From assembly GCA_944325945.1 (NCBI GenBank), contig CALVBW010000002.1:1-56993 (forward strand): 56,993 nt of DNA, read 5' to 3'. Position 1 is the first letter of the stretch. Each line of letters starts with the position of its first letter. Below the pieces are notes generated by a model. It made no database searches, was not told where the DNA came from, and saw only the letters and a program-made list of their open reading frames with translations. The stretch comes from Candidatus Gastranaerophilales bacterium (lineage in GTDB: Bacteria; Cyanobacteriota; Vampirovibrionia; Gastranaerophilales; Gastranaerophilaceae). Positions 3,806 to 53,807 of the stretch are shown here, piece after piece. The position numbers were made by a program, and so were the translations under genes.

Positions 3806-4531
3806 TATTTTTGGTTTAAAAAATCTGTCCAATAATTTCCGGCACCATCGGGATTTTTGTTTAGTAATGCATATTCAGTGCATCCGTATCCAAGATAGGG
3901 ATCTGTACTGTTTAAATCGGATAACGTACATGGACGTGTATCATGAGCCGGATTTGCAACAGGTAAAATACCATTATTTTCGGTTATTTTAAATGTGTGA
4001 AGATCATATCCTGCTTTATTAGGTTTATTTTGACCGTTTAGATCAATATAAATCCAGTGGTAAAAGCCAATCCACATAATCATATTATCCGGTAGTAAAA
4101 TTGAAGTTTTATTAGAGATTGCTCCTATATGCAAAGTCCCATTGCCTGCCAAATTTGTGTAATTACGTTTGCAATTATTGTCTTTTGTACTGTCACATAA
4201 TTTTGCACCATTTATTAATTCTGCCATGTCCTGTGCCTGTTTTTGTAATATATCAGCACCTTTTGTATTTTTATCGTAATCATAATATGGCGATATTCCC
4301 TTCGCTATAAGATAAGTATTTGCATTTTGTATAATTGAATATGCTTTTTTTAATTTTGTTTCATAAATTTTAGCCTGATATTTTGTCACAAGGGTGGGAA
4401 TAGTCATGGCTGCAACAATACCGATAATACCTAAAGTAATCAAAACCTCAGCAAGTGTAAAACCCTTGCTAAAAGCCGATTTCGGGGGGGGTGATTGTCT
4501 GAACCGCGGTCATGCCAAAACTTTTAGCCAT
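3805..4531 (-). CDS. Type IV prepilin, frame broken at a C8 tract (phase-variable candidate)
   Basis: Precursor of a pilin-like subunit, with motif KGFTLAEVLITLGIIG (Gly at -1, Glu at +5) and a C-terminal domain of about 190 residues containing Cys. The pilin frame itself has no credible start: the first start codon in frame, TTG at 4443, lies inside the helix. Upstream an ATG at 4531 has an AGGAGA site and encodes MAKSFGMTAVQTIT, then a run of eight C (plus-strand G at 4484-4491). With eight C that frame stops at a TAG 18 bases further on. With seven C it would read through PPKSAFSKG into FTLAEV, a normal-length leader. The gene as sequenced is therefore OFF. A fixed pseudogene or a sequencing error at the homopolymer are the alternatives. 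Confidence 0.75.
4484..4491 (-). repeat. Homopolymer tract (C8 on the coding strand) in a prepilin leader
   Basis: Eight consecutive G on the plus strand lie between the Shine-Dalgarno-linked ATG and the prepilin motif. Loss of one base restores one continuous frame, which suggests slipped-strand switching. Confidence 0.75.
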
Positions 4532-13143: not shown

Positions 13144-13168
13144 AAACCTAAAAATAAGGAGGAAAGCC

Positions 13169-13204
13169 ATAAGAAACAAAGAGTTAAAAAATGTCGGGGG
13201 GGGG
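13169..13204 (+). other. Broken leader of the prepilin at 13366: ATA start and G9 tract
   Basis: Compared with the leaders at 15800 and 30869, the ATG is replaced by ATA (13169-13171), eight bases or fewer after AAGGAGG. The coding text RNKELKNV is followed by nine G (13196-13204). In this frame a TAG is reached four codons after the run. With ten G the frame would continue without a stop through the whole repeat into the pilin. Confidence 0.7.
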
Positions 13205-13254
13205 CGACTCTCCTAGATAGACAGGACAAGGGTTTTGGCGGTATACGTTGGGAA

Positions 13255-13453
13255 AAGTTACTAAGATACTATGGCACTAAGATACTAAGAAGTAACGGTC
13301 GGCATTACTATGCGGACAGAAAATATATCGTCGGGTTAGTAAACCCGACCTATAAGAAACTTCCTTTGTTCCTCAAGGGCGAGAGAGAAAAATCTGTGAG
13401 CGAAGCTCACAGAAAATTCTTAGTGTCTTACTGTCTTAGTAACTTAGTATCTT
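13255..13453 (+). repeat. Foldback repeat cassette, copy 2
   Basis: The arms AAGTTACTAAG... and ...CTTAGTATCTT are inverted. The inner double-hairpin unit at 13297-13343 is somewhat degraded. Instead of the GAGATTCTTC block this copy carries TTTGTTCCTCAAGGGCGAGAG and the palindrome GTGAGCGAAGCTCAC, both also found in copy 4. It is open in the pilin frame. Confidence 0.75.
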
Positions 13454-14127
13454 CCAAAAAAGCCGCCTTTACCCTCGCTGAAGTCTTGATAACCCTCGGC
13501 ATAATCGGAATAGTAGCTGCAATGACAATCCCGACACTTATTACAAATCATAGAAACAAACAACTTCAAGTTGGGCTTAAAAAAGCATATTCTGAACTCC
13601 AACAGGCTTTACTTATGTATCAGGCAGAAAATGGTTTTCCATTAAGCAGGTTTGATGCCGATAAAGAAACATTAATGAAATATTTTAAAGTCGCTCAGGA
13701 TTGCGGTTTGGGTTATTCTGACAGAAATACTGCTTGTGTTCCGAATGATCCGAATAGACCTGATACGCGGATTTATAAAAATTTTAATGGTACAAATTAT
13801 GTAAATATGGAATGTTTTGATGACGGTCAGTTCGTTTTGGCAGATGGCGCCTTGATTATGATAAATACTGTTGGGGCATGTCCGAAATCTATAAATATTG
13901 ATGTGAACGGATATAAAAAAGGTCCAAATAGGCTAGGGCAGGATTTATTTGTTTTTTTGTGGAATGTTGTTGATAATCCCGTAGAAGTGTACCCTGCCGG
14001 AGCTCACCCTGATTGGGGTTGGAATGACAGTCCATGTAATAAAACTTCAAAGGATTCTTTTAATGGTTTGACATGTACTGTAAAGGCTCTTAATGATAAA
14101 GACTTTTTTAATAATTTGCCTAAATAA
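13366..14127 (+). CDS. Type IV prepilin-like protein (probably OFF)
   Basis: Pilin-like precursor with KAAFTLAEVLITLGIIG (Ala at -1, Glu at +5) followed by a domain of about 200 residues with paired Cys, including CNKTSKDSFNGLTC near the end. The TTG at 13366 lies within a repeat and has no ribosome-binding site. The pilin frame is open much further upstream, to the G9 tract at 13196-13204, where a promoter and Shine-Dalgarno are found. As sequenced, translation from the upstream ATA would be in the wrong frame, and ATA is itself a poor start, so this copy may be doubly silenced. It ends before a shared terminator with lysS. Confidence 0.75.
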   Translation: MFLKGEREKSVSEAHRKFLVSYCLSNLVSSKKAAFTLAEVLITLGIIGIVAAMTIPTLITNHRNKQLQVGLKKAYSELQQALLMYQAENGFPLSRFDADKETLMKYFKVAQDCGLGYSDRNTACVPNDPNRPDTRIYKNFNGTNYVNMECFDDGQFVLADGALIMINTVGACPKSINIDVNGYKKGPNRLGQDLFVFLWNVVDNPVEVYPAGAHPDWGWNDSPCNKTSKDSFNGLTCTVKALNDKDFFNNLPK

Positions 14128-15799: not shown

Positions 15800-15835
15800 A
15801 TGAGAAATAAAGAGTTTAAGAATGTCGGGGGGGGG
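15800..15835 (+). other. Leader ORF start and G9 tract of the prepilin at 16006
   Basis: AAGGAGG at 15788-15794 precedes ATG (15800) and the text MRNKEFKNV, then nine G (15827-15835). The frame ends at a TAG four codons after the run. Ten G would move it into the pilin frame, but this copy then meets TAA at 15901 inside the repeat. Confidence 0.75.
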
Positions 15836-15885
15836 CGACTCCTCTAGGTAGACAGGACAAGGATTTTGGCGGTATTGGTTTAGTA

Positions 15886-16036
15886 AAGATACTAAGATAC
15901 TAAGTTACTAAGGCAGTAAGAGGTAACTGTCGATTAGTAAACCCGACCTACAAGAAACTCAAGAGATTCTTCGTCGGTGCACAGAATGACAAAAATACTT
16001 TCTTAGTGCCTTACTGCCTTAGTAACTTAGTATCTT
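15886..16036 (+). repeat. Foldback repeat cassette, copy 3 (shortened)
   Basis: Inverted arms as in the other copies, but the inner unit is truncated to its right half (15929-15951). GAGATTCTTC...CAGAATGAC is retained. A TAA in the pilin frame at 15901-15903 interrupts this copy. Confidence 0.75.
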
Positions 16037-16710
16037 CTAAAAAAATCGCCTTTACCCTCGCTGAAGTCCTGATAACCCTCGGCATAATCGGTGTTGTCGC
16101 TGCAATGACGATTCCGACATTGATATCAGAGTATCAGGATAAACAGTTTAAAACAGCGTATAAGAAGGCATATTCGGATCTTAATCAAGTTCTTTTGCAG
16201 TCATTAGCATATAATGAAATGCCATATCGATCAAGCAAACATGATACAGCGGCAATCAAAGCCGAATTTGCAATAATAAAATCGGGTCTAAAAATAACTA
16301 AACAATGTGATGAAGATAGTTTTTATTCATGCTGGGCAAAAGGTGATACATTATGTGGAGGCGCATGCACAAGCGGCAATGTAGATGATGGTATAGATAT
16401 GGAAAATGGTGGACCACGCCCGGAAAGGTTAGAAGCAAATCAATTTCCATTTATAGACAGCTCCGGACGAAGCTGGTCCCCATATGTAACGGATGAAAAT
16501 ATATTTGTTGTTGATACGAACGGATTGGCCGGACCTAACAGATTTGGAAAAGACAGATGGATATTTACTTTCGCAAATCAGGATGGGACAAGAACTTCCA
16601 GCGGTTATCCTGTAAAAGTCAGACCGTACTACTCTAAAGATTTTCTTACTGTAGATTCCTTTTGTAAGCGACCGCCTTGTTATTATTATACATGGCTTTA
16701 TGAAAGATAA
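16006..16710 (+). CDS. Type IV prepilin-like protein, paralogue of the gene at 224
   Basis: Pilin-like precursor with KIAFTLAEVLITLGIIG and a C-terminal domain ending CKRPPCYYYTWLYER, like the gene at 224. A 69-base block (16111-16179) and the last 66 bases (16646-16711) are identical to that gene, while the central region differs in about every third codon, a mosaic that suggests gene conversion. The GTG at 16006 has no ribosome-binding site. Translation from the upstream ATG at 15800 is blocked by the tract frame and by a TAA at 15901, so this copy looks silent, possibly a donor. It converges with pilT. Confidence 0.75.
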   Translation: MPYCLSNLVSSKKIAFTLAEVLITLGIIGVVAAMTIPTLISEYQDKQFKTAYKKAYSDLNQVLLQSLAYNEMPYRSSKHDTAAIKAEFAIIKSGLKITKQCDEDSFYSCWAKGDTLCGGACTSGNVDDGIDMENGGPRPERLEANQFPFIDSSGRSWSPYVTDENIFVVDTNGLAGPNRFGKDRWIFTFANQDGTRTSSGYPVKVRPYYSKDFLTVDSFCKRPPCYYYTWLYER

Positions 16711-16717
16711 AAATCTT

Positions 16718-17788
16718 TTATGTGCCTTGAATTTGTCTTTTAAGTTCATCAGGTCTTGATGAACGTGCAAGGGCATCTTCAATAGTGATTAATTTATTTT
16801 TGTATAATTTAGCAAGAGACATTTCAAGGGTTTCCATGCCTACGCCCTGACTGGTTTGTATGGTTGAATATATTTGTGCTGCTTTGGCTTCTCGGATAAG
16901 GTTTGCAATAGCAGGTGTGACAATCATTATTTCCTGAGCCATAACACGACCTTTTTTAGTGCCGTCAGGTTGCAATTTTTGTAGAAGTGTTTGAGAGAAT
17001 ACAGCTACAAGAGAGTTTGCAAGCTGTACACGAATTTGTTGCTGCTGACCTTCCGGGAATACGTCAATAATACGGTCAATAGTTTGAGATGCAGAAGATG
17101 TGTGCAATGTCCCGAAAACTAAGTGACCTGTTTCTGCAGCGGTAAGAGCAAGAGCTATTGTTTCGTGGTCTCTCATCTCACCTACCAGAATAATATCAGG
17201 GTCTTCACGAAGAGCTGCTCTCAGTGCATTTGCAAAAGATCTTGTGTCGGCACCGAGTTCTCTCTGGTGTATGATACTTTTTTTAGATGTGTGGACAAAT
17301 TCAATAGGGTCTTCAATTGTAAGAATATGTTCTGCACGTGTTCTATTGATATAGTCAACCATTGCAGCAAGTGTCGTTGATTTACCTGAACCTGTAGGAC
17401 CTGTTACAAGAACCAGTCCGCGGGGTCTTTCAGCTGTCTTTTTTACAATATCCGGCAGTCCAAGATCTTCAAGTTTTGGTGCAACTGCGCTGATTGTTCT
17501 GAATGCTGCAGCATAGCAGCCTTTATCTTTGTAGAAATTGACCCTGAATCGGCCTACATTATCAATACCGTATGAAAAGTCTAATTCCCAATCCTGTTCA
17601 AGACGCCTTCTTTGTTCATTTGACAGCATAGGAAATAATAAAGCTTCCACATCTTCAGGGGTCAGCGGGTTTGACTCATATCGTACAAGCTGTCCGTCTA
17701 TACGTGCAACAGGCGGCAATGCATTTGAGATATGCAAGTCACTTCCGCCTTCTTTTACTAATCTTTCTAACAATTCTTCTATAATCAT
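16718..17788 (-). CDS. pilT: Type IV pilus retraction ATPase PilT
   Basis: Hexameric ATPase at the pilus base that drives retraction and twitching. 356 residues with Walker A GPTGSGKST at 130-138, Walker B DIILVGEMRD, and the His box GHLVFGTLHT. The C-terminal AIRNLIRE-like PilT motif appears as AIANLIREAKAAQI. It follows a small gene by 12 bases and has an AAGGTGAAG site. It is the only pilus motor gene here, and no pilB, pilC or pilD is present. Confidence 0.95.
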   Translation of the reverse strand: MIIEELLERLVKEGGSDLHISNALPPVARIDGQLVRYESNPLTPEDVEALLFPMLSNEQRRRLEQDWELDFSYGIDNVGRFRVNFYKDKGCYAAAFRTISAVAPKLEDLGLPDIVKKTAERPRGLVLVTGPTGSGKSTTLAAMVDYINRTRAEHILTIEDPIEFVHTSKKSIIHQRELGADTRSFANALRAALREDPDIILVGEMRDHETIALALTAAETGHLVFGTLHTSSASQTIDRIIDVFPEGQQQQIRVQLANSLVAVFSQTLLQKLQPDGTKKGRVMAQEIMIVTPAIANLIREAKAAQIYSTIQTSQGVGMETLEMSLAKLYKNKLITIEDALARSSRPDELKRQIQGT

Positions 17789-22678: not shown

Positions 22679-23812
22679 CTAATCACAGGAATGTTTTCCA
22701 TCCCAGCTTAAATCATCACAGTGCAGGTAATCCATATTTTCATTATAAATTACCCAGGCAGTGCAAGCTTCGCAATACTGTTTACAGTCTTTTCTGTTGC
22801 AATTTGTCATAGGGTCTTCTACCCGTATATCATTTCCTTCTTCATCCTGTGAAATATAAAGTCTGTCAGGCATTCCGTTTGGTTTAATACCGTTGTTAGT
22901 AAATATAAAAGAAAATGTGTCTTTGCCGTTGACATTCGGGCCTTTTGTACCGTTTATATCAATAACAATTGCGCCAAAAACAGGATTATCCGCAGGGAAG
23001 CCGTATTTTGTGCTTTTTGTTTTGTATGTGTTTCCATAATTATAGAATAAAACGCTTGTTCCGTCTGATAATACAAATTTTGCATGCCGTGTTTCCGTAT
23101 AAAAGTTATAATGATTTTTGCCGCTAAGAGTTGTATACATTGCGTTAGCAAAACATCCTTCAGCATCAAGACATTTTTCAGTGACCTTTAAGTAAGGCTC
23201 AAATTTTTCAAACGTAAGAATATCAGTTTGCGTGGTTTCAGGCATTGAAGCAGTTTCCCATTTGGTGCCAACGTCGTTTTCAATAGTTGCCATTGTGTAG
23301 GCTTGATTAAGTGTTGAATAAACTTTTTTTAATTTAGTAACGGTTTGTTTTTCGTTATAATTACTTATCAACGTCGGAATAGTCATAGCAGCAACAACGC
23401 CGATTATGCCGAGGGTGATTAGCACCTCAGCGAGGGTAAATGCGGCTTTTTTAGAAGATACTAAGTTACTAAGGCAGTAAGGCACTAAGAATTTACTGTG
23501 AGCTTCGCTCACTAATTCTTCCCTCCCGCCCTTGAGGAACAAAGGGAGCCAACGAGGTACGAGTTGTGCGACCCTGTTTCCGGAACGTAGTGAAGGTGGG
23601 AGGGTTAGGGTGGGGGGAATTTTTTTGAGATGCTGAAACAAGTTCAGCATCTCATTAACTTTTTGCGATTCTTCGGCTAACGCCTCAGGATGACCTGTAA
23701 AATTCCACAATAATCCAATATGTTGTTGTGCCGTCGGCACCTCAGCCTGACCGGAGGTTAAGCTACTGCCCCCCTTGCTTGAAAAGTAGTCGTAGTGCTT
23801 GTTTGCGTCCAT
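22679..23812 (-). CDS. Type IV prepilin with a 124-residue leader (in frame, ON)
   Basis: Pilin-like precursor in which the whole frame is open from a good start: GGAGG then ATG at 23812, reading MDANKHYDYFSSKGG through a six-G run. The text derived from dispersed repeats continues to KKAAFTLAEVLITLGIIGVV. Cleavage after Ala124 would release a leader about ten times the usual length. The mature domain is about 250 residues with a Cys-rich tail and the ending YLHCDDLSWDGKHSCD, shared with the protein at 31180. Its leader start is homologous to that of the gene at 52694. It is the in-frame reference for the other, out-of-frame copies. Confidence 0.85.
   Translation of the reverse strand: MDANKHYDYFSSKGGSSLTSGQAEVPTAQQHIGLLWNFTGHPEALAEESQKVNEMLNLFQHLKKIPPTLTLPPSLRSGNRVAQLVPRWLPLFLKGGREELVSEAHSKFLVPYCLSNLVSSKKAAFTLAEVLITLGIIGVVAAMTIPTLISNYNEKQTVTKLKKVYSTLNQAYTMATIENDVGTKWETASMPETTQTDILTFEKFEPYLKVTEKCLDAEGCFANAMYTTLSGKNHYNFYTETRHAKFVLSDGTSVLFYNYGNTYKTKSTKYGFPADNPVFGAIVIDINGTKGPNVNGKDTFSFIFTNNGIKPNGMPDRLYISQDEEGNDIRVEDPMTNCNRKDCKQYCEACTAWVIYNENMDYLHCDDLSWDGKHSCD
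23454..23520 (-). repeat. Foldback cassette half, copy 4
   Basis: On the minus strand, CTTAGTGCCTTACTGCCTTAG and following (arm only) precede the prepilin motif, with GTGAGCGAAGCTCAC in front. The opposing arm and the inner double hairpin are absent. Confidence 0.7.
23770..23775 (-). repeat. G6 run in the ON prepilin leader
   Basis: Six G on the coding strand at the same place in a homologous leader where the gene at 52694 has eleven. Here the frame is continuous. Confidence 0.6.
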
Positions 23813-30833: not shown

Positions 30834-30868
30834 TTTTTAAAATTTATCTGTAGAAAAGGAGAAAAATA

Positions 30869-30904
30869 ATGAAAAATAGAGAGTTTAAAAATATCGGGGG
30901 GGGG
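30869..30904 (+). other. Leader ORF start and G9 tract of the prepilin at 31180
   Basis: AAGGAG at 30856-30861 precedes ATG (30869) and MKNREFKNI, then nine G (30896-30904). In this frame the TAG is four codons further. With ten G the frame would be open for about 90 codons through the repeat to the pilin motif, with no stop. Confidence 0.8.
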
Positions 30905-31008
30905 CGACTCCTCTAGGCCAGCGTGCCGCTGGACCCGCCCAACAGGAAGTTGGAGAAAATTTAACTGTTCATGAAATTAACAAGGGTTCTGGCGATATAT
31001 GTTGGAAA

Positions 31009-31210
31009 AAGATACTAAGATACTATGGCACTAAGATACTAAGAAGGAACATTTATAACATAAATGTAGGTCGGCATTACTATGCCGACAGAAAACATAC
31101 CGTCGGGTTAGTAAACCCGACCTACAAGAAACTCAAGAGATTCTTCGCCGGAGCTCAGAATGACAAAAATACTTTCTTAGTGCCTTACTGTCTTAGTAAC
31201 TTAGTATCTT
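31009..31210 (+). repeat. Foldback repeat cassette, copy 5 (most complete)
   Basis: The left arm (31009-31044) and right arm (31176-31210) are inverted. The inner unit at 31066-31125 begins GTAGGTCGG and ends CCGACCTAC, and holds hairpins GTCGGCATTACTATGCCGAC and GTCGGGTTAGTAAACCCGAC. Then comes GAGATTCTTC...CTCAGAATGAC. All of it is open in the pilin frame. Confidence 0.85.
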
Positions 31211-31947
31211 CCCAAAAAGCCGCCTTCACCCTCGCTGAAGTCTTAATAACCCTCGGCATAATCGGTATTGTAGCTGCAATGACCATTCCGACGCTTGTTC
31301 AAAACTATAAAGAGCGCGTAACTGTAACTAAAGTGAAAAAAACTTACGCAGTATTGACAAACGCACTTCAATTAGCAATATTAGAAAACGGAACAGTTGA
31401 TACCTGGGGATTGTCAGGTATATATAAAGATGAAGAGGATAATGATCAGATTTCACAAGAAGGTTCAGCAAAGTTTGCTCAAATCTTTTCAAAATATCTG
31501 AGAAAGAGTAAAATTTGCGAAGGTAATATTGATTGTACCGGCGGGTACGAACATTTATTATTGAATGGTGATGAATATACGGTGAGGGCTGAGGGTTCAT
31601 CATCAATAATCTTACCTGACGGGACGGGAATATGGTTTACGCCATGGACGGATAATTGTCATGGTACAAATGCATGCGGTTCAATGACTATAAATTTGGA
31701 TTTGGATAAGAAAAGACATTACGGAGTAAATACATTTACTCTGTATGTATATAAAGACAGATTTGTGCCATGGGGCAGCAGTTCAATTTTATCAGATACA
31801 AACAATGCTTTTTCTAAGAAATGTATATATAACGGAGGCAATTTTGAAAACGGTCTGGCATGTACCGGCTGGGTGTTAGAAGTAGGTAATATGGATTATC
31901 TTCATTGTGACGGATTATCATGGGATGGTAAGCATTCTTGTGATTAA
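31180..31947 (+). CDS. Type IV prepilin-like protein (OFF by one G)
   Basis: Pilin-like precursor with QKAAFTLAEVLITLGIIG, Ala at -1 and Glu at +5, and a mature domain of about 230 residues. It ends NMDYLHCDGLSWDGKHSCD, nearly the same as the prepilin at 22679. The GTG at 31180 lies in the repeat arm without a ribosome-binding site. The frame is open upstream to the G9 tract, where the Shine-Dalgarno-linked ATG at 30869 is out of frame by one base. One extra G would give a precursor of about 360 residues with a leader of about 115. It converges with era. Confidence 0.8.
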   Translation: MPYCLSNLVSSQKAAFTLAEVLITLGIIGIVAAMTIPTLVQNYKERVTVTKVKKTYAVLTNALQLAILENGTVDTWGLSGIYKDEEDNDQISQEGSAKFAQIFSKYLRKSKICEGNIDCTGGYEHLLLNGDEYTVRAEGSSSIILPDGTGIWFTPWTDNCHGTNACGSMTINLDLDKKRHYGVNTFTLYVYKDRFVPWGSSSILSDTNNAFSKKCIYNGGNFENGLACTGWVLEVGNMDYLHCDGLSWDGKHSCD

Positions 31948-36304: not shown

Positions 36305-36970
36305 ATGAAACGAGGTTTTACATTAGCTGAGGTTTTGATAACTTTAGGTATCATTGGTGTGGTTGCAGCAATGACAATACCGACTTTAGTACAAAATTAT
36401 AAGAAAAAACAGGCAAGTGTTAAACTTAAACGATTTTATAGTATGATGCTTCAGGCTATACAATTGTCAGAAGTGGATAACGGTTCTGCTTTATATTGGG
36501 ATAAAGAGAGTATAGCGCGTAATGAAGATGGTGAAATAGATAATACGGAACAAAAGGCACGTGTCGAAAGATTTTATACAAAATATCTGGCATCATATTT
36601 AAAGTCTGTAAAAATAACATCCAGTCAGTTTCATGAAAATCGTTTGAGGTTTTATTTTCAAGATGGTAGCGTCACAGATATTAATAACGGAGACTGTATT
36701 CATTTTATATATGACATTAATGGGGATAGTTCTCCTAACGTACCAGGTCGTGATCAATTCGGTTTTTTGCTTTGTAACAGTCAATACAATTCCAGTTATC
36801 ATATGTTTTATCCGAATAGAGCGTTCGGTTCTTACAAGCAAGATGAAAAAGATGTTTCTGATCGCGAAAAAGCTTTGCAGGCTTGTAAAGAATTCGCATC
36901 ATATTGTACATTTTTATTAGAACACTACGATAATTGGGAATTTAAAGAAGATTATCCTTACAAGTTGTAA
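36305..36970 (+). CDS. Type IV prepilin-like protein with a normal short leader
   Basis: 221 residues. It starts MKRGFTLAEVLITLGIIGVV, a three-residue MKR before Gly, so this is the only prepilin here with the classic short leader, no homopolymer and no repeat cassette. GGCGG lies upstream of the ATG. The mature domain contains a Cys pair and the DINGDSSPNVPGRDQFGF segment common to these proteins. It has its own consensus promoter and probably an XRE repressor. Expression looks constitutive or repressor-controlled, unlike its tract-containing relatives. Confidence 0.88.
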   Translation: MKRGFTLAEVLITLGIIGVVAAMTIPTLVQNYKKKQASVKLKRFYSMMLQAIQLSEVDNGSALYWDKESIARNEDGEIDNTEQKARVERFYTKYLASYLKSVKITSSQFHENRLRFYFQDGSVTDINNGDCIHFIYDINGDSSPNVPGRDQFGFLLCNSQYNSSYHMFYPNRAFGSYKQDEKDVSDREKALQACKEFASYCTFLLEHYDNWEFKEDYPYKL

Positions 36971-52693: not shown

Positions 52694-53755
52694 TTAATCT
52701 TTTACACAAATTGACCAGGGGCTGCCAAATCTGTTTGTTCCATATATTGAGCAGGTACCATTTGTAATATTACATAGTGCGCTGCTAACTTGTTTCGGGT
52801 TACTGCTGGATGCCTCATACCAGACGGGTGCAAGGCCTGACATGACGTTAAAACCAAGTTCGGGTAAATATCTGGCAAGTGATTGTACTTCTCCCATAGT
52901 TGGCAATCTGCCACCAATATCTTTACATGTTTTTACTGCTCCGAAATAGCTGTCCCCTCCGTTTGCGTCACAAGTGTCACAACAACTTTCTATATCATAA
53001 TCATCTTTAGTTTTCTCGCATTCCGAAAATGATATTGCAGGTGGATCAAATGCGTCATTTAAAAAACATACGCCGTTGACTTTTTTGTAACAGCTGCTTC
53101 CCAGACTTGCGACATTATCATTTTGGCGTACATCTTTGCTGCTTGTATTAGGATTTCTAAATCCATCTGTATCATATAATATAGCAAGACAATTCATAAC
53201 ATCAACTCTGTTAGAATAAGGATTCTGGCTGCAATTTGGATTATATGCTATTAATGCAGTAACTCCATTAGCAAACATGGTACCAATAATCTCTGTACCC
53301 CAGTCATCTTGTCCGAAATTCTCGGCACTCGTTATTTCAGACATATCAATTTCTTCTTTATCAGTGCCCCAGTATATTTTATCCTCAAAACATGAAAGAA
53401 TATCATTATTATTACATATTTTATTGGTTTTAAAATGTTTTGAAAGTTCATTGACAAAAGCTGCTGTATTTCGGTGTCCGGCAAGCGTCTGCTGGGTATT
53501 CATGCTTTTTAAAGATTCTTCTAATTTTCTTTCAAAAACTTCCGCTGATGTATCCCAAACTATTTTTTTGTAGTTTTGTACTATAGTTGGTATTGTCATA
53601 ACAGCAACAATACCGATGATACCTAGAGTAATCAAGACTTCAGCTAACGTAAAAGCAGAAGAATTTATGCAAGACCTGGTATGACGTCCAGCCTCAGGAT
53701 GACTTGAGGTTAAGTTAGTGCCCCCCCCCCCTCCTGAGAGAAATATAGTGTTCAT
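52694..53755 (-). CDS. Type IV prepilin-like protein with a long C-terminal domain (OFF at G11)
   Basis: Pilin-like precursor with SSAFTLAEVLITLGIIGIV and a mature domain of about 320 residues, the longest here, with several Cys and a C-terminal region (GRLPTMGEVQSLARYLPELGF...WSICVKD) resembling the C-terminal domain of large pseudopilin-like proteins. The ATG at 53755 has no ribosome-binding site. Sixteen bases upstream, ATG at 53771 is preceded by GGAGG and reads MGANTHEHYISLRRGGG to a stop after eleven G. With ten G it would join the pilin frame. The leader matches that of the prepilin at 22679. Confidence 0.8.
   Translation of the reverse strand: MNTIFLSGGGGGTNLTSSHPEAGRHTRSCINSSAFTLAEVLITLGIIGIVAVMTIPTIVQNYKKIVWDTSAEVFERKLEESLKSMNTQQTLAGHRNTAAFVNELSKHFKTNKICNNNDILSCFEDKIYWGTDKEEIDMSEITSAENFGQDDWGTEIIGTMFANGVTALIAYNPNCSQNPYSNRVDVMNCLAILYDTDGFRNPNTSSKDVRQNDNVASLGSSCYKKVNGVCFLNDAFDPPAISFSECEKTKDDYDIESCCDTCDANGGDSYFGAVKTCKDIGGRLPTMGEVQSLARYLPELGFNVMSGLAPVWYEASSSNPKQVSSALCNITNGTCSIYGTNRFGSPWSICVKD
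53721..53731 (-). repeat. G11 tract in a prepilin leader
   Basis: Eleven C on the plus strand, between the Shine-Dalgarno-linked ATG (53771) and the prepilin motif. Ten or thirteen bases would make one continuous frame. Confidence 0.8.
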
Positions 53756-53807
53756 GCGTATTTGCGCCCATTTCTAGCCTCCAATAAATATGTCTACAAT
53801 GCCAATA

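Follow-up and report, generated by a model that had tools for sequence, protein, structure and literature searches.

A foldback repeat lies between the Shine-Dalgarno (SD)-led ATG and the conserved motif of a type IV pilin-like gene at positions 30857–31947 (+) of the window analysed here, a stretch of 56,993 nucleotides that forms part of a 1.63 Mb Gastranaerophilales genome of 32 contigs. The locus raises the question of why this repeat has remained free of stops in the pilin frame, and how a leader lying out of frame with its own start codon might come to be translated.

The focal locus and the genes that share its plan

The gene begins with a Shine-Dalgarno AGGAG (30857–30861), followed by an ATG and its pre-tract codons, nine in all (MKNREFKNI, 30869–30895), and by a run of nine G (30896–30904) which we propose to be an ON/OFF switch, OFF with nine G and ON with ten. 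At G9, translation from the ATG reaches a TAG at 30914–30916 after a 15-residue product, and a +1 change, in DNA or RNA, would be needed for the leader to be read. This leader (30905–31224) is a mosaic of repeat modules, among them the left (31009–31054) and right (31165–31210) arms of the foldback, which are 78% complementary and fold strongly as RNA (z = −6.9), and an inner hairpin at 31065–31126 with arms at 31065–31089 and 31102–31126. Cleavage is expected after KAA at 31224, releasing a mature type IV pilin-like protein of 240 residues (FTLAEVLITLG..., 31225–31947). The preliminary description had reported a frame without stops from the G9 run to the pilin motif, and the same in two further copies. 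This was confirmed for the 106 codons between the tract and 31225, for 87 codons of the copy at 13204–13453 and for 89 codons of the copy at 2–254, where the contig starts inside the leader. The long leader that it predicted from the ATG at 30869 with ten G also stands, although its length is 119 residues (357 nt from the ATG to residue F1) instead of about 115.

The identity of the product as a pilin-like protein is supported by sequence and by genome content. All five window pilins tested, the focal one included, scored above the PF07963 cut-off, and F1, E5 and most of the hydrophobic segment are invariant among 33 paralogues. The model of the mature focal pilin (pLDDT 86) displays an N-terminal helix of 53 residues (3–55) and a beta-rich domain with strands. 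Its structural similarity to pilins is weak (FimA as best match, Z 4.7, rmsd 4.5, 129 aligned; other pilins at Z 3.3–3.9) and does not stand out clearly from that to unrelated folds at Z 4.4, and a Foldseek search with the mature focal pilin returned nothing significant. One prepilin peptidase (PF01478) and four T2SSE-type ATPases (PF00437) were found above cut-off in the genome. Class III (type IV prepilin) leaders have been reported to span 6–26 residues and to end in Gly (PMC4471445), a usual rather than absolute trait, and the focal leader, with its approximately 119 residues and Ala at −1, falls outside this norm.

Besides the focal gene and the two copies already mentioned, the window harbours four more tract pilins that the preliminary description had overlooked. 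The gene truncated by the contig start (2–913, +; PF07963) retains an open leader (2–268) and a mature part at 269–910. The locus at 13157–14127 (+; PF07963) comprises an SD (13157–13162), a G9 tract (13196–13204), a leader (13205–13467) and a mature part (13468–14124), and it carries ATA at 13169–13171 where sibling loci have ATG, so that it may be silent at any tract length. Among the overlooked genes, that at 15800–16710 (+) has an ATG at 15800, G9 at 15827–15835 and a mature part from 16051, and is the sole member of a set of 40 leaders with a stop in the pilin frame (15901–15903); a T2SSE/PilT-type ATPase gene (16928–17785, −) adjoins it. The locus at 22679–23812 (−) is in frame, that is ON, with an ATG at 23812, a G6 tract (23774–23769), a 124-residue leader and a mature part from 23440 within an ORF of 377 residues. 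The remaining two are start regions in OFF state, one with a C8 tract (4461–4531, −; ATG 4531, tract 4491–4484, motif from 4461) and one with a G11 tract (53653–53771, −; ATG 53771, tract 53731–53721, motif from 53653), the latter OFF from its own ATG. A pilin without tract (36305–36967, +; PF07963), whose leader MKRG has the usual short length, provides an internal contrast.

The same arrangement extends throughout the genome, where the window repeat used as query matched 116 places and a search for pilin heads gave 84, of which 80 distinct motifs were taken into the analysis. At least 54 of these 80 share the plan of an SD, an ATG, 7–13 codons, a G or C homopolymer and an open leader, the leaders being mosaics of palindromic repeats, mostly of 50–200 codons, that are open in the pilin frame. 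In 53 of the 54 tract loci the ATG is preceded by an SD of five bases or more, a figure not independent of their selection, since SD presence was used for picking them. Three start types were distinguished: type A (ATG + 27 nt + G9 + CGACTC..., G9 being the commonest tract), type B (ATG + 40 nt + C9) and type C (ATG + 37 nt + G10/G11). The 20 tractless pilins, on the contrary, bear ordinary short leaders (MKRG, MKKG), often ending in Gly, directly 5' of FTLAEV, and the open codons upstream of the motif reach a median of 107 in the 54 tract pilins versus 13 in the 20 tractless ones (Mann-Whitney, 8e-10). Several type A tracts appeared with no paired pilin near contig ends, where assembly breaks in repeats.

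Across the family, the AGGAG-ATG-G9+ layout was detected in 24 of 60 genomes (16 of 41 genera), with tracts of up to G14, and was absent in the rest; the presence in only 16 of the 41 genera suggests that the start-tract system comes and goes. In one genome (G024), five starts (L358–L362) show the SD-ATG arrangement with G11 to G13 and no pilin motif within 1 kb, and other genes than pilins may use the same switch. In the metagenome-assembled genome BRZ_E bin153, six loci (L116, L117, L122, L124, L130 and L140) carry G9–G11 tracts 500–750 nt 5' of a pilin motif; these tracts apparently do not lie between start codon and pilin, and could possibly act as a promoter-type switch.

State of the tracts and the proposed switch

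We favour, with a probability of about 0.68, the interpretation that these genes encode phase-variable type IV pilins switched by slipped-strand mispairing, with a leader that is removed by the peptidase and hence tolerates mobile repeats inserted in frame. Translation would start at the SD-led ATG 5' of the homopolymer, usually G9 but C9 or G10/G11 in the two other start types, and slippage of the tract at DNA replication would couple the pilin frame to the ATG or uncouple it. A locus in the OFF state would be translated no further than a few codons past the tract, while one in the ON state would give a prepilin whose leader measures up to about 200 residues. As prepilin peptidase is known to remove the hydrophilic leader of prepilins, which stays cytoplasmic (PMC4471445), the long leader would likewise remain on the cytoplasmic side and be cut off before the conserved Phe. 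Palindromic repeats inserted in the leader would persist where they kept the frame and added no stop, and the leader would grow as an in-frame mosaic; long leaders would be tolerated because they are discarded, and repeats would accumulate there because an insertion that keeps the frame costs little. Leaders would also be swapped between pilins by recombination within their common 5' part. The anatomy, the open frames, the selection against stops at no constraint on amino acids, the alleles in ON and OFF state and the recent mobility of the repeats are, as far as sequence comparison can tell, properties of these loci; change of the tract in DNA within a population, cleavage of the long leader and display of the pilus as the switched trait would be what the interpretation adds to them. 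Cleavage of a 119-residue leader, against the reported range of 6–26, is the weakest step.

The state of each locus was called from the distance between ATG and motif, in frame or out of frame. With homopolymer lengths read from draft assemblies and one genome per species, so that the variation seen is that between loci and between species, in-frame loci numbered 5 of 55 in this genome (including 22679–23812), 5 of 25 in G010, 3 of 30 in G012 and 1 of 13 in G001. In G052, which belongs to another genus, 4 of 31 loci were ON, with G11 as the ON and G10 as the OFF length. This common OFF length of 10 weakens the idea that nine G is a plain mutational resting length.

The predominance of the OFF state could also be accounted for if the tract in DNA were meant to be one base off, with slippage of RNA polymerase or the ribosome ensuring a low constant level of every pilin. 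Within a genus, tracts hardly differ in length (G9 in genus g1, G10 in G052), and the base missing at OFF loci of type A, type B and G052 is almost always +1: nearly all class A loci of g1 are G9 and need exactly one more base, as do the 26 of 31 loci with G10 in G052. The close stop behind the tract, where out-of-frame translation ends within 12 nt in 48 of 50 loci, would also suit such programmed slippage. However, loci of the C8 and G10/G11 classes would be restored by −1 or +2 instead, alleles in frame occur in most genomes, and tract length differs between genera, other genera having tracts of G9 to G14. Moreover, homologous genes are found in different states, as in the pair formed by L046 (G9, OFF) and L253 of G010 (G10, ON), and among homologous pilins of sister species both the state and even the start type can differ. 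Hence we regard programmed slippage as unlikely, and slipped-strand switching at the level of DNA as the better account of these alleles.

The leader frame and its selection

The preliminary description further proposed that the repeat is maintained as coding sequence, and our comparisons with all copies, with the other frames and with copies away from pilins uphold this as regards openness only. Over the collected leaders the pilin frame held far fewer stops than the other two frames (1/4116 codons versus 378/4076 and 423/4076), a difference beyond chance. The contrast persisted when only unique 21-nt contexts of the 40 leaders were counted (1/2403 versus 195/2383 and 221/2375) and when all tract loci were included (2 stops in 4682 codons versus 426 and 485). 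Leaders of relatives were similarly clean in the pilin frame, with 0/2160 stops in G010, 4/1573 in G012 and 0/807 in G052, where the other frames contained 60 and 67. Since leader copies are related by descent and these counts are not independent, the argument rests on the size of the contrast and not on exact p values.

Isolated substitutions between leaders (n=334) created no stop versus 14.6 expected, whereas the synonymous ones amounted to 80 versus 86.3 expected under neutral placement, indicating that openness is selected and the peptide is not. In agreement with this, mismatches are spread over codon positions in leaders (33/30/37%) but concentrated at the third position in the mature pilin head (16/3/81%), and the observed/expected N/S ratio is 1.23 in leaders and 0.30 in mature pilins. 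The leader reading frame is, on this comparison of sequences, protected by selection, while its amino-acid content is not. Of 2178 cases of leader 15-mers shared between loci, 2129 (97.7%) keep to a single phase. An exception is L038, where a common palindrome is read as CHPELDSGS instead of the VILNLIQDL of the others, both phases being open. An initial stop-avoidance test on best alignments, which gave 20 apparent single-step stops, was replaced by the isolated-change test; because the leaders themselves are without stops, those 20 must be codons with multiple changes. Gaps between leaders did not fall neatly into multiples of three (79 of 154 gapped alignments by net gap length), a pattern that we think arises where local alignments pass over unrelated modules and short internal repeats, and this test was kept out of the evidence.

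A conserved RNA or DNA hairpin was also considered as the functional part and rejected, for the fold is strong but the left arm is present in only 22 of the 40 leaders and thus missing in 18, the right arm being found in 34 of 40. An Rfam search of the window returned tRNAs only. In nine loci (L094, L123, L139, L140, L142, L058, L080, L280 and L281) a second AFTLAE precedes the true motif and is separated from it by an insert, as if insertions had duplicated the pilin motif as their target site.

Copies of the module at eight loci away from pilins allowed us to ask how much of the openness belongs to the repeat itself, given that an open frame elsewhere would make it a mere property of the repeat. 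This holds in part: these copies are mostly open in the homologous frame (5 stops in 462 codons versus about 10% in other frames), which implies that the module brings some of its openness with it, yet they do bear stops and also several frame-breaking gaps of 1, 2, 4 or 5 bases. The repeats could accordingly have been open in one frame by chance and have been recombined between pilin genes with little or no later selection, as the modules shared among leaders, apparently swapped between pilins, would allow. Nevertheless, the lack of stops among the 334 isolated changes argues against inherited openness as the whole explanation. So do the significantly cleaner frame of the pilin leaders relative to the non-pilin copies (2/4682 versus 5/462, Fisher p = 1e-4), the openness of leaders with different inserts in other genera, and the module that is open in two different phases. 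We consider this explanation very unlikely, and selection for an open leader the more satisfactory one.

One of these loci (G000:C18:9112–9705; L288 621–1817; L331, L332, L333) contains repeat units in frame inside an iron-sulfur gene labelled GlcF-like from its sequence alone. The gene has no unit in G009 and G010, one in G012 and three in this genome, each step comprising whole codons; such stepwise growth indicates that the repeats were recently mobile and are able to settle in frame outside pilins. With respect to exchange between pilin genes, L044/L264 and L058/L271 are pairs of similar mature pilins of sister species with different start types and leaders, which suggests swapping of the 5' part of the pilin gene.

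Finally, initiation at GTG codons near the motif, which would yield ordinary short leaders and make the upstream frame irrelevant, appears highly improbable: GTG 31180 would give a 15-residue leader, in some leaders an SD-like GTG is located about 72 nt 5' of the motif and the 5 strong SD-start pairs are all in the pilin frame, but GTG 31180 lacks an SD, pilin-frame SD-start pairs are present in only 13 of 40 leaders, and the 100–200 stop-free upstream codons and the SD-ATG-tract arrangement would be left unexplained.

Parallels in known systems and significance

The closest parallel of the proposed switch is found in Bifidobacterium breve, where replication slippage at a G tract switches sortase-dependent pili, the tract differing in length between laboratory cultures and gut populations and the in-frame length being enriched in mice (PMC9187656). 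Both cases concern gut commensals, a G tract that separates the start and secretion signal from the pilin body, an OFF state determined by frame, and a downstream frame without SD. Unlike the two B. breve loci, which encode sortase pili and have no repeat-built leader, the genome studied here holds about 55 type IV pilin-like genes with leaders of up to 200 codons. By analogy, mostly-OFF slipped-strand switching would fit here as it does in B. breve. Poly-G contingency loci of Campylobacter and Neisseria, with tracts of more than 7 G (PMC4235727), also resemble the present ones in their homopolymers above that threshold within a reading frame, in the control of ON/OFF state by frame and in the many loci per genome. 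In contrast to them, the present loci belong to one pilin family, most are OFF by the same base, and the mismatch repair genes MutS and MutL are present in the genome.

As for the repeats, Rickettsia palindromic elements (RPEs) are mobile palindromes that lie in frame in ORFs and are translated (reviewed in PMC10969869). The leader repeats share with them their palindromic nature, mobility, in-frame position and translation, in one case here within a metabolic gene. However, RPEs reside in many unrelated genes with a conserved peptide, whereas here several short modules with no relation to each other accumulate in a single, probably cleaved leader under no peptide constraint. Since no peptide conservation was found, the leader repeats are not classed as RPEs. 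Like class III signal peptides, the pilins possess a hydrophobic segment with Glu5 (FTLAEV...) and the genome encodes a prepilin peptidase; unlike those 6–26-residue leaders ending in Gly, the leaders described here reach about 200 residues and often end in Ala. Our literature search, which covered few subscription journals, found no paper on pilin switching in Gastranaerophilales. The G-tract pilus switch and the in-frame palindromic repeats each have a known counterpart; their combination, in a cleaved leader and at this scale, appears undescribed, and no account of repeats restricted to a cleaved leader was found either.

A wider view, to which we give even odds, is that the leader constitutes a safe harbour for in-frame repeats selected for openness alone, behind some 55 independently switching and mostly OFF pilins. 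Each cell would then expose a small random subset of them, and the repeats of the leaders would supply the homology by which starts and pilin bodies are shuffled.

These observations have a practical consequence for gene callers, to which most such pilins resemble short genes with a false downstream start, as the GTG at 31180 exemplifies. If the proposed reading is true, coding repeats would have a third outcome beside gene damage and peptide domestication, namely tolerance in a discarded part of a protein. Likewise, an uncultured gut lineage would gain a system of surface variation with about 55 switchable pilins, whose states could be read from tract lengths in metagenomes.
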